From Mycolicibacterium tusciae JS617 (GTDB lineage Bacteria > Actinomycetota > Actinomycetes > Mycobacteriales > Mycobacteriaceae), in the NCBI RefSeq assembly GCF_000243415.2, contig NZ_KI912270.1, positions 496,001-560,000 of the forward strand: a stretch of 64,000 bases of DNA, read 5' to 3'. Under the pieces are notes generated by a model that was given only the letters and a program-made list of their open reading frames with translations, was not told where the DNA came from and did no database searches. Position 1 is the stretch's first letter, and each line of letters starts with the position of its first letter. Positions 9,403 to 20,951 of the stretch are shown one piece after another. Made by a program: the position numbers and the translations under genes.

Positions 9403-10620
9403 ATGGCTGAAGCCGTCATTGTCGCCACAGCACGATCGCCGATCGGGCGCGCCGTCAAAGGTTCGCTCGCCACGATGCGCCCCGATGACCTCGCCGCGCA
9501 GATGGTTCGGGCGGTATTGGACAAGGTTCCCTCGTTGGACCCGAAGGACATCGACGATCTGATGATGGGCTGCGCGCAGCCCGCCGGTGAGGCCGGCTAC
9601 AACATCGCCAGGGCGGTAGCCGTCGAACTCGGCTACGACTTCCTGCCCGGCACCACGGTCAACCGCTACTGCTCGTCGTCGCTGCAGACCACCCGGATGG
9701 CCTTCCACGCCATCAAGGCCGGTGAAGGTGACGTGTTCATCTCCGCGGGTGTCGAGACGGTGTCGCGCTTCGGCGTCGGCGCCGCCGATGGTGCCCCGAA
9801 CAGCAAGAACGCCATCTTCGACGAAGCTCAGGCCCGGACGGCCAAGCAGGCTGAGGGAGCCGACGAGTGGCATGACCCTCGCGACGACGGCAACATCCCC
9901 GATGTCTACATCGCGATGGGCCAGACGGCGGAGAACGTTTCGCTGTTCACCGGGATCAGCCGCGAGGACCAGGACCACTGGGGCGTGCGGTCGCAGAACC
10001 GCGCCGAGGACGCCATCAAGAGCGGGTTCTTCGAGCGGGAGATCGTGCCCGTGAAGCTGCCCGACGGTACGACGGTCACGACCGACGACGGCCCACGTGC
10101 GGGCACCACATACGAGAAGATCAGCCAGCTGAAGCCGGTGTTCCGCCCCAACGGCACCATCACCGCGGGCAATGCGTGTCCGCTCAACGATGGTGCAGCA
10201 GCCGTTGTCATCATGAGCGACACCAAGGCCAAGGAGTTGGGCCTGACCCCGTTGGCGCGCATCGTGTCGACGGGGGTGAGCGGTCTTTCGCCGGAGATCA
10301 TGGGCCTCGGCCCGATCGAGGCGATCAAGAAGGCGCTTGCCAAGGCGGGCAAGAAAATCTCCGACATCGATTTGGTCGAGATCAACGAGGCGTTCGCGGT
10401 GCAGGTGCTCGGCTCGGCGCGGGAACTCGGCATCGACGAGGACAAGCTCAATGTGTCGGGTGGCGCGATCGCGCTGGGGCATCCGTTCGGCATGACGGGT
10501 GCGCGTATCACCGCCACGCTGCTGAATAACCTTGCGACGTATGACAAGACGTTCGGCATCGAATCGATGTGCGTCGGCGGCGGCCAGGGCATGGCGATGG
10601 TGGTGGAACGCCTCAGCTGA
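9403..10620 (+). CDS. fadA3: acetyl-CoA acetyltransferase / 3-ketoacyl-CoA thiolase
   Basis: A 405-aa thiolase catalysing CoA-dependent cleavage of 3-ketoacyl-CoA in fatty acid degradation. C90 in NRYCSSSLQ is the nucleophile acylated in the reaction. NEAFA, the His of GGAIALGHPFGMTGAR and the last Cys in CVGGGQGM complete the active site. AAGGAG lies 5 bases before ATG 9403. It is Rv1074c (fadA3) by order and faces the same way as echA9 and echA8 further on, all beta-oxidation type enzymes. Confidence 0.92.
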   Translation: MAEAVIVATARSPIGRAVKGSLATMRPDDLAAQMVRAVLDKVPSLDPKDIDDLMMGCAQPAGEAGYNIARAVAVELGYDFLPGTTVNRYCSSSLQTTRMAFHAIKAGEGDVFISAGVETVSRFGVGAADGAPNSKNAIFDEAQARTAKQAEGADEWHDPRDDGNIPDVYIAMGQTAENVSLFTGISREDQDHWGVRSQNRAEDAIKSGFFEREIVPVKLPDGTTVTTDDGPRAGTTYEKISQLKPVFRPNGTITAGNACPLNDGAAAVVIMSDTKAKELGLTPLARIVSTGVSGLSPEIMGLGPIEAIKKALAKAGKKISDIDLVEINEAFAVQVLGSARELGIDEDKLNVSGGAIALGHPFGMTGARITATLLNNLATYDKTFGIESMCVGGGQGMAMVVERLS

Positions 10621-10636
10621 TTGGCCTCTTTGACCC

Positions 10637-10690
10637 GAGACTGCTGACAGATCGCGATTTCACGAGATATCGCGATCTGTCAGCAGTCTC
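10637..10690. repeat. 22-bp palindrome, copy 1, at the 3' end of the DUF559 gene
   Basis: Perfect inverted repeat: arms 10637-10658 and 10669-10690 around a 10-base loop. The arm core CTGCTGACAGATCGCGAT recurs in a second palindrome at 11554-11615. The stop codon of the DUF559 gene lies in the loop, and one arm encodes its last residues (LLTDRD). It can also act as the fadA3 terminator. Confidence 0.8.
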
Positions 10691-11529
10691 GATCGCCAGG
10701 CGCGGTCCAAACGCCGCAGCACTTCGGCTGAGCTGTTCGCCTTTACGACTCGCAGGCGCGTCCAGCCGACTTCGGCGATGTCCTCCGACCGCTTGATGTC
10801 GTCGGCGTAGACATCCGGGTCGTTGCGGTGCTGTTCGCCGTCGTACTCAAGAGCCAACATGAGGTCTTCCCAACCCATGTCGAGGTAGTACTGCCGCCGG
10901 CCGTCGGGGCTTCGCACCGGTATTTGCGTCCGCGGTCGCGGGTATCCCGCACGAATCACCAAGAGTCGCAACCACGTTTCCCTCGGCGATGCGGCTCCGG
11001 GGTCCATCAGGTCGAGAGCCGCGCCGAGCTGACGGAGATTACGGGCACCACGATGAACTCGAGCGACCGCAAAGACATCTTCAGCTGACACTCCCGTGGC
11101 TTCGGCCAAAGCATCCAAACGCGCGACCGCTTGATCAAGCCGGCCACGACGCGCTATATCGAACGCGGTGCGCTCGGGGGTGGTGACACGAAGTTCGCCT
11201 TGAACTGCGAACTCGTTCGGGCGAAGCCTCATGTCGTAGGTACGCAGCCCGCGCGGACGCCGAGCGTTTTGCCACACCAGCTCGATCGGATCCGTCACGT
11301 CAACCCACTTCGCGCCATGCAACGCAGATGCCGTCAACCCAGCGATCACTCCCTCTCGGTGTGACCACAACCATCCCGCAACTGCGCGTTGATGCAGGGT
11401 CGGCACAGCATCTTTAGGTACGTACACGTCAGGAAACTCTGCCCGGAATCCAGCCCGTAGTTCATGTTTCTTGAGTAGGCCTTTGGTGATGGCTTCGCTG
11501 CCTACGAACGGCCAGTTCAGTGTCGTCAT
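10660..11529 (-). CDS. DUF559 (Vsr-like nuclease fold) protein, Rv1073 position
   Basis: A 289-aa protein. The C-terminal part is a DUF559 domain of the PD-(D/E)XK/Vsr class: YYLDMGW, ALEYDGEQH and GWTRLRVVK give the expected Asp, Glu and downstream basic residues. The N-terminal 170 residues (TTLNWPFVGSEA, AGLTASALHG, TPERTAFDIARRG) resemble the AbiEi-type antitoxin fold found in front of this domain in actinobacteria. ATG 11529 is chosen; upstream codons come from the flanking palindrome. Its place and length match Rv1073 (about 283 aa, from memory). The gene is exactly bracketed by two related palindromes, and its last codons are palindrome sequence. Role unknown; nuclease activity is inferred. 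Confidence 0.7.
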   Translation of the reverse strand: MTTLNWPFVGSEAITKGLLKKHELRAGFRAEFPDVYVPKDAVPTLHQRAVAGWLWSHREGVIAGLTASALHGAKWVDVTDPIELVWQNARRPRGLRTYDMRLRPNEFAVQGELRVTTPERTAFDIARRGRLDQAVARLDALAEATGVSAEDVFAVARVHRGARNLRQLGAALDLMDPGAASPRETWLRLLVIRAGYPRPRTQIPVRSPDGRRQYYLDMGWEDLMLALEYDGEQHRNDPDVYADDIKRSEDIAEVGWTRLRVVKANSSAEVLRRLDRAWRSRLLTDRDIS

Positions 11530-11553
11530 ATTGCGACACTCGCCGCTCCGCGC

Positions 11554-11615
11554 CGCCGAAACTGCTGTCAGATCGCAAATTGTGGATGAATCGCGATCTG
11601 TGAGCAGTTTCGGCG
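11554..11615. repeat. palindrome copy 2, upstream of the DUF559 gene
   Basis: Arms 11554-11576 and 11593-11615 match at 21 of 23 positions around a 16-base loop. The core shared with copy 1 is ACTGCTCACAGATCGC. The two copies lie in the same relative orientation just outside the DUF559 coding region. Confidence 0.8.
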
Positions 11616-11656
11616 AAGGGGTTCCAGAGTCAACGAAAAGGGGTGGCACGAAAAAA

Positions 11657-11679
11657 GCCCGGCACATTTCGTGCCGGGC
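11657..11679 (-). terminator. intrinsic terminator of the YccA-like gene
   Basis: Nine-bp perfect stem GCCCGGCAC/GTGCCGGGC with a 5-base loop. On the minus strand it is followed by six T residues (plus-strand A-run 11651-11656). It lies 15 bases after the stop at 11695 and is one of the few canonical terminators in the window. Confidence 0.85.
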
Positions 11680-11694
11680 CTTTCGCGGTGACTG

Positions 11695-12543
11695 CTAGTC
11701 GCTGTTGAAGTACGACAGCAGCCGCAGAATTTCGAGGTAAAGCCAGACCAGCGTGACGGTCAGGCCGAGGGCGATGCCCCAGGCGGCCTTGGCCGGCGCA
11801 CCGGCGCGAATCAACTGGTCGGCCTGATCGAAGTCGATCAAGAACATGAATGCCGCCAGACCGATGCAGACCAGCGAGAAGATGATCGCCAGTGGACCAC
11901 CACTACGCAGGCCGAAGCCCTCGCCGCCGCCGACACCGAACATCGCGAGCACGAAGTTCAGCAGCGCGATAGCCACCACACCGAACAGGGCGGCGACCAT
12001 CATTCGCGTGAACTTCGGCGTCACCCGGATGGCTCCGGTCTTGTAGACGACGAGCATGCCGACGAACACGCCAACGGTTCCGAAGATCGCCTGCGCGATC
12101 ATCCCGGGACCACCGTTGGACACGAGGTTCGCGAACAAGAACGACGCGGCGCCAAGGAAGAGTCCCTCGAGCGCGGCGTAGCTCAGCACGATGCCCGGGT
12201 TGTCCTGCTTGCGTCCGAACGTCGCGATCAACACCATCGCGAGACCACCGAGCGCGCCCACAAGCACGAAGGGCATCATCAAGCCGACGTTCTGCGAGAC
12301 GAGGAAGTACGAGATGACGCCGACTACGGTCACCACGGCCAGCGTCATGCCGGTCTTGGTGACGACATCATCGATGGTCAGCGGCCGGTCGACGCCTGCC
12401 TGCTGCTGGTCGGGATACTGCGTGACATATGGATCGGCCTGTACGGCCTGCGCACCGTAGCCGGCGGCTCCGGTACCAAACTGCGCGTAACCGCCCTGAC
12501 CCTTGGGCAGGGAACGAAATACCGGGTTGCTGGACTCCCGCAC
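11695..12543 (-). CDS. Bax inhibitor-1/YccA-family membrane protein (Rv1072-like)
   Basis: A 282-aa protein with a soluble Gly/Gln/Tyr-rich N-terminus of about 55 residues, then seven hydrophobic segments in the arrangement of bacterial TMBIM/YccA proteins. The C-terminal signature is FMFLIDFDQADQLIRAGAP followed by WLYLEILRLL. The paired acidic residues IDFDQ are typical of the family, whose eukaryotic members leak Ca2+ or H+. The bacterial function is not settled. GTG start with GAGAGG upstream; single-gene transcript ending at the 11657-11679 terminator. Order matches Rv1072. Confidence 0.88.
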   Translation of the reverse strand: MRESSNPVFRSLPKGQGGYAQFGTGAAGYGAQAVQADPYVTQYPDQQQAGVDRPLTIDDVVTKTGMTLAVVTVVGVISYFLVSQNVGLMMPFVLVGALGGLAMVLIATFGRKQDNPGIVLSYAALEGLFLGAASFLFANLVSNGGPGMIAQAIFGTVGVFVGMLVVYKTGAIRVTPKFTRMMVAALFGVVAIALLNFVLAMFGVGGGEGFGLRSGGPLAIIFSLVCIGLAAFMFLIDFDQADQLIRAGAPAKAAWGIALGLTVTLVWLYLEILRLLSYFNSD

Positions 12544-20883: not shown

Positions 20884-20951
20884 CCTATGGTCGAGATTGA
20901 AACCATGGCTGCGGTTGGCTGAACAACCCTGTCGTCAATCTCGACCGTAGG
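20884..20951. repeat. inverted repeat between convergent genes
   Basis: Arms 20884-20900 and 20935-20951 match at 16 of 17 positions (CCTACGGTCGAGATTGA) with a 34-base centre holding a smaller GGTTG/CAACC hairpin. It lies between two stop codons, so a bidirectional terminator is possible. The long conserved arms and the extra half-copy ATCGAGACCGTAGG just before (from about 20858) look more like a dispersed intergenic element. Confidence 0.6.

Follow-up and report, generated by a model that had tools for sequence, protein, structure and literature searches.

What does it mean that a nuclease-like gene of Mycolicibacterium tusciae JS617 lies between two related palindromes? The question is raised by a 64,000-nt stretch of contig NZ_KI912270.1 (positions 496,001 to 560,000), referred to here as the window, and the answer that we moderately favor is that the gene product and its palindromes form a nuclease-palindrome duo working like the REP-associated tyrosine transposases (RAYTs) and repetitive extragenic palindromes (REPs). 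The preliminary description of the locus had placed both palindromes correctly to within 1 nt (Table 1). They are separated by 862 nt and are 79% identical over 57 nt, with arms of 26 nt (96% complementary) downstream and 23 nt (91% complementary) upstream, and they are the top two (scores 23 and 17, the next being 14) of the seven hairpins in the window with a score of at least 11 and a span of at least 44 nt. The gene's last codons were indeed encoded by the downstream palindrome, as had been described. The LLTDRD described in frame upstream of the gene is there in sequence (KLLTDRDSSTICDL) and, lying ahead of the likely start at 11529, is probably not translated. The 15-nt core alone, with 3 mismatches allowed, is not rare in the window (8 found versus 5.7 expected), so the evidence comes instead from the pairing of the arms and from the matches across the genome.

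Table 1. Features at the palindrome-flanked gene (window positions)
Feature	Position	Strand	Basis
AbiEi-nuclease fusion gene, 289 aa	10660..11529	minus	profile search, AlphaFold2 (AF2) model, fold comparison, residue conservation
Downstream palindrome, overlapping gene 3' end, encodes SRLLTDRDIS-stop	10636..10691	no strand	hairpin scan
Upstream palindrome, same family as downstream one	11554..11615	no strand	hairpin scan
TCATCCACAA in upstream palindrome loop	11580..11589	minus	loop motif comparison

The locus was compared with 116 related loci, comprising 10 paralogs from the same genome, 26 loci from genomes of the same genus and 80 from named contigs, mostly of Mycobacterium or Mycolicibacterium. 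At a hairpin score of at least 11, and with the incomplete loci L047, L059, and L067 dropped, a strong hairpin was found just upstream of the gene in 57/114 loci, part of these being the terminator of the neighboring gene, and just downstream in 70/113. Control positions about 1 kb away gave 1/110 and 1/110, and the inside of the gene gave 3/116. With spans restricted to 44 to 95 nt, there were 56 loci with an upstream hairpin, 77 with a downstream one, and 40 with both; in 53 of the 77 the downstream hairpin started ahead of the point at which the script placed the end of the reading frame. A nuclease gene of this kind between two palindrome copies of about 60 bases is often encountered in mycobacteria. 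The two copies at a locus resembled each other (0.66) far more than copies from different loci did (0.25; 0/10000 shuffles), a match that is not accounted for by shared descent, and palindrome similarity increased with protein identity (r of 0.54 and 0.56; 0/2000; 108 non-redundant of 116 genes). The middles of otherwise unlike palindromes share the motif ACTCGnACTT (11 upstream and 16 downstream, including L089, L099, L101, L119, L126, and L133).

The search of the own genome returned 13 paralogs. A matching hairpin pair was observed at L001, L002, L008, and L011, in four different sequences, and a single flanking hairpin at L005, L007, L009, L010, and L012; L003 and L006 had no hairpin, L004 had one within its open frame, and that of L013 was G+C rich, 38 nt long, and of a different type. 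At L008 two identical 57-nt palindromes (1359-1415 and 2313-2369) lie one on each side, which suggests recent homogenization or formation. The nuclease residues are lost in L006, L007, and L010, of which L007 and L010 retain an upstream hairpin only and L006 none. A solo hairpin elsewhere in the window (20884-20951) has ends like the palindrome at L007 (GTCGAGATTG.. / ..CAATCTCGACCGTAGG) and is probably a copy of another palindrome family.

Fold comparison of the window protein, using a model with a mean predicted local distance difference test score (pLDDT) of 91.7, assigned about residues 1-176 to AbiEi-like domains and about residues 177-283 to a Vsr/I-Bth0305I-like nuclease fold, in which the acidic and histidine residues E184, D217, E228, D230, and H234 are conserved. 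Among the Pfam profiles, AbiEi_1 scored above its cut-off and MTES_1575 and DUF559 below theirs, and no match was obtained for the Y1 transposase (HUH, IS200/IS605-type). The comparison with REPs and RAYTs that had been drawn for this locus stands for the arrangement and the dispersal; the enzyme is a different one, AbiEi-Vsr-like. When weight was assigned by protein segment, the first 44 residues had the largest (0.25 versus 0.16-0.18; 133 non-redundant of 146 genes), which is only suggestive of their being the DNA-reading part.

The genes next to the fusion gene encode a thiolase (Thiolase) and a Bax-inhibitor-like protein (BaxI_1), and neither of these neighbors of the window gene is a nucleotidyltransferase toxin. 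A toxin-antitoxin-like unit, which had been put forward as an alternative, was rejected on this ground, the AbiEi resemblance being to a DNA-binding antitoxin. Plasmid or phage cargo was likewise rejected, the 7 plasmid matches and 1 phage match being distant (all ≤37% identity). Nor are there the multiple near-identical gene copies of an insertion sequence, since no own paralog exceeds 45% identity with the window protein.

It had been proposed that the core be sought genome-wide and in relatives, and it proved to be dispersed in its own genome and some others. With up to 2 mismatches allowed, the core matched the own genome 106 times and the reversed pattern 20 times. Among the matches listed, at least 9 formed arm pairs with starts 31 nt apart, and 17 aligned copies, including the two at the gene, had common ends over about 62 nt. 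The solo copies that were viewed sit in short gaps, several of them between convergent frames, as judged from open frames and codon composition. Across 118 genomes, with up to 1 mismatch, abundance was lineage specific: 46 matches in G081, 31 in the own genome (G000), 16 in G107, 14 in G065, 10 in G070, and ≤9 in the others, with control matches of ≤2 per strand. Close orthologs of the protein were found in the core-rich genomes G081 (79%, partial match), G107 (70%), G065 (69%), and G070 (66%). A looser BLAST search of 20 genomes with one solo copy as the query revealed many relatives in G055, G042, G013, G019, and G068 among the matches listed. The window family has the REP-RAYT arrangement, in which further copies of the palindromes flanking the gene lie scattered outside genes, and the family of paralog L002 has it in other genomes.

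The L002-type motif was present in 31/118 genomes (control matches, 0; maximum, 79 in G037), the counts being of arms, with some places counted twice because of the variable gap. Thirty L002-like loci were fetched, and the motif was in the bracket at 10. After subtraction of the gene's own locus, at least 10 matches were left in 9 of these 10 genomes and 1 in G000, while of the 20 loci without the motif in the bracket only that of G068 (31) was in a genome with at least 4. At least 10 further matches were thus found in 9/10 bracketed versus 1/20 other genomes (Fisher P = 6.7e-6; the genomes are not independent). For a third core, the G011/G040/G079 type, there were 17 matches in G016, 12 in G022, 11 each in G039 and G079, 10 in G040, 3 in G011, and 1 in G000, many of them adjoining a nuclease gene. 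A genome in which the gene carries one version of the palindrome tends to have further copies of the same version dispersed in it. For the GAAATAGCATTCCGGG variant, seen in G068, G081, and other genomes, no cognate gene was detected; GAAATnGCATTCC was absent from 15 additional stretches (L243-L257).

Whole elements were observed to be present or absent at orthologous sites. At the solo L019 site, read by eye in 19 genomes, G000 and G107 carried the window-family palindrome, G081, G068, G079, and G011 one of the GAAATAGCATTCC type, and G040, G027, and G099 a related variant; no palindrome was seen in G065, G013, G098, G082, G055, G019, and G029, and G042, G058, and G060 were not classed. The solo L030 site, compared in 19 of 20 fetched loci (L307 being omitted; ten were one-sided), had a palindrome in G000, a degenerate one in G081, and none in G107, G065, G011, G040, G099, G027, and G070. 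At the solo L018 site, compared in 7 of 20 loci selected by left-flank matches, the palindrome was present in G000 and G081 and absent in G065, G107, G079, and G058, with a different hairpin in G029.

The gene's own site was compared in 24 of 28 genomes, G115, G075, G089, and G032 being left out as having distant thiolases only. The gene was present in G081, G104, G073, G019, G068, G107, and G105, with two palindromes in 5/7 (those of G068 differing from each other) and one in G104 and G019. In G081 (L255, L258) and G105 (L279) the orthologous gene is split over separate frames with its palindromes retained. A solo palindrome without the gene was found in G020, G049, G061, G080, and G083 (5/24), and by eye also in G059 and G117. 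One palindrome with another gene between was found in G050, G088, and G092, and that gene without a detected palindrome in G056. Neither gene nor palindrome was present in G102, G002, G111, and G106; G100 was degenerate and G065 rearranged. The site therefore occurs as empty, as a solo palindrome, or as palindrome-gene-palindrome. The empty sites that had been sought do exist, and related palindromes are present at orthologous nuclease genes, as the bracketing counts, the within-locus match, and the own site all indicate.

How might such a duo work? The fusion protein would recognize its own cognate palindrome of about 57 to 62 bp and nick or cut it, the substrate perhaps being a hairpin that is extruded or single-stranded. 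Palindrome copies could in this way disappear and insert anew into short gaps outside genes, and the gene itself would remain at low copy number, flanked by its two palindromes. The one upstream, which has a special loop, may also serve the protein as an operator for self-control. The AbiEi half would be a natural reader of inverted repeats; binding to inverted repeats in promoters is reported for AbiEi and Rv2827c (PMC7319586). That the nuclease maintains or spreads its own repeat, as first suggested, is the best-supported reading of these sequence comparisons, and the overall interpretation given then is partly supported.

Several observations weigh against this proposal. Palindrome binding, cleavage, the transposition step, and autoregulation are all inferred. 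Dispersal in the own genome is established for the window family alone; the L002-type motif has 4 matches there, 3 of them within the gene's own brackets, and bracket-like hairpins are missing in 4/13 own paralogs. The genomes are not independent, and the protein-palindrome correlation partly reflects shared descent. A motif-bracketed gene was not found in 6/16 genomes with at least 4 L002-type matches (G011, G052, G068, G079, G102, and G114, the search having excluded G052). The GACTCTGCGTCCAGGGCGC core flanks the gene of G011 on both sides, yet that genome has only 3 matches to it, 2 of them at the gene. G019 and G013 have orthologs of 64% and 63% identity, yet just 6 and 5 window-core matches, and G081 has the most despite the split frame of its gene. 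No target-site duplication was defined. Pairing in the dispersed copies (85.1%) was as in shuffles (84.7%), with no compensatory excess, and selection for pairing was rejected; because compensatory change is absent, the data suggest that dispersed copies decay after insertion.

Homing, or loss by recombination, would be compatible as well with the occurrence of both palindrome-gene-palindrome and solo states. In a homing-like unit the nuclease would cut a solo cognate palindrome, repair from palindrome-gene-palindrome would proceed via palindrome homology, and recombination between copies would restore solos. The solo palindromes at the own site and the resemblance of the nuclease fold to the homing endonuclease I-Bth0305I are consistent with this. 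However, in canonical homing the gene-bearing copy is protected from cleavage, whereas both window palindromes are complete; if the palindrome is the recognition site, the gene-bearing copy would be unprotected. The higher-copy part, moreover, is the palindrome rather than the gene, as the divergence of the paralogs indicates, and we consider homing unlikely. Somewhat less likely still is a DNA-binding regulator, for which the palindromes would be operators for autoregulation and a dispersed regulon, with the nuclease half serving something else. The binding of promoter inverted repeats by AbiEi and Rv2827c fits this, as do the upstream hairpins of L007 and L010 and a loop motif of the upstream palindrome, TCCACA (15/56 upstream and 0/77 downstream hairpins). 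Against a regulator stand the overlap of the downstream copy with the gene end, the location of the viewed solos in short gaps (in several cases with convergent open frames on either side), the gain and loss of entire elements of about 62 bp, and the conservation of the nuclease residues. Ordinary terminator-like or chance hairpins, although suggested by the neighbor's terminator among the upstream matches and by the solos between convergent frames, are highly improbable given the bracketing relative to controls, the within-locus match, the L002-type association, and the shared arm sequence and lineage-specific dispersal unexpected by chance; a simple scan of 10550-11750, which also missed the neighbor's likely terminator, found no terminator-like pattern. 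An RNA family was also rejected, the two Rfam matches at E up to 1 both being far under their gathering scores.

The nuclease-palindrome duo resembles REP/REPIN-RAYT (TnpA-REP) systems in that a low-copy gene is flanked by extragenically dispersed palindromes whose variants follow the gene. RAYTs are described as HUH enzymes related to IS200/IS605 transposases that co-evolved with their REPs (PMC8266576) and as single-copy and distinct from each other (PMC3116915). The diverged low-copy gene with its higher-copy palindrome resembles a RAYT with its REPs. The enzyme here is an AbiEi-Vsr-like fusion instead, and its palindromes are about 57 to 62 bp, in contrast to the 20 to 40 bp given for REPs (PMC3733652). 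The system is outside the RAYT family, its enzyme being a different one, yet its arrangement is that of a REP-RAYT duo and its mode of action probably is too. CGTC-tagged REPs are also dispersed palindromes without a tie to a RAYT, but, in the same paper, they have 8- to 9-bp stems and no dedicated transposase described and occur in five phyla without Actinobacteria. AbiEi antitoxins of type IV toxin-antitoxin systems (Rv2827c) share the fold of residues 1-176 and the profile matches; they differ from the window protein in its fused nuclease fold, the palindromes on both sides, and the missing adjacent toxin. I-Bth0305I, which we take to be of the EDxHD family, shares the catalytic-domain fold, whereas here the gene stands alone between two genes, with two complete flanking palindromes in place of an evident interrupted target. 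A literature search (listed titles and abstract openings, few subscription papers, no bioRxiv) found no description of this nuclease-palindrome pairing, and this looks like an apparently unreported counterpart of REP palindromes and RAYT enzymes. Structured families listed for M. tuberculosis (PMC2267715), for example Myt-1 (72 nt, 75 copies), were compared by description and could overlap with these palindromes.

The protein profile matched 110/121 genomes of the order, in 41/49 genera. Of 20 loci outside the genus, surveyed without a control set, four had alike hairpins on both sides (L227 and L239 clearly, L236 and L240 more weakly), twelve had a one-sided hairpin, and four had none, some of the hairpins possibly being terminators. 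The wider proposal, of mobile palindromes driven by a non-HUH AbiEi-Vsr-type fusion, with several specific duos possible per genome, reaching beyond Mycobacterium within the order and convergent with REP-RAYT, is tentative and falls a little short of being probable. If such a duo is at work, it would supply a likely driver for dispersed mycobacterial palindromes and would mean that REP-like parasitism need not evolve around a RAYT-related enzyme. Diverged pairs coexisting in one genome would then be natural specificity tests of protein versus palindrome, and the DUF559-scoring genes of this order would gain a testable role.
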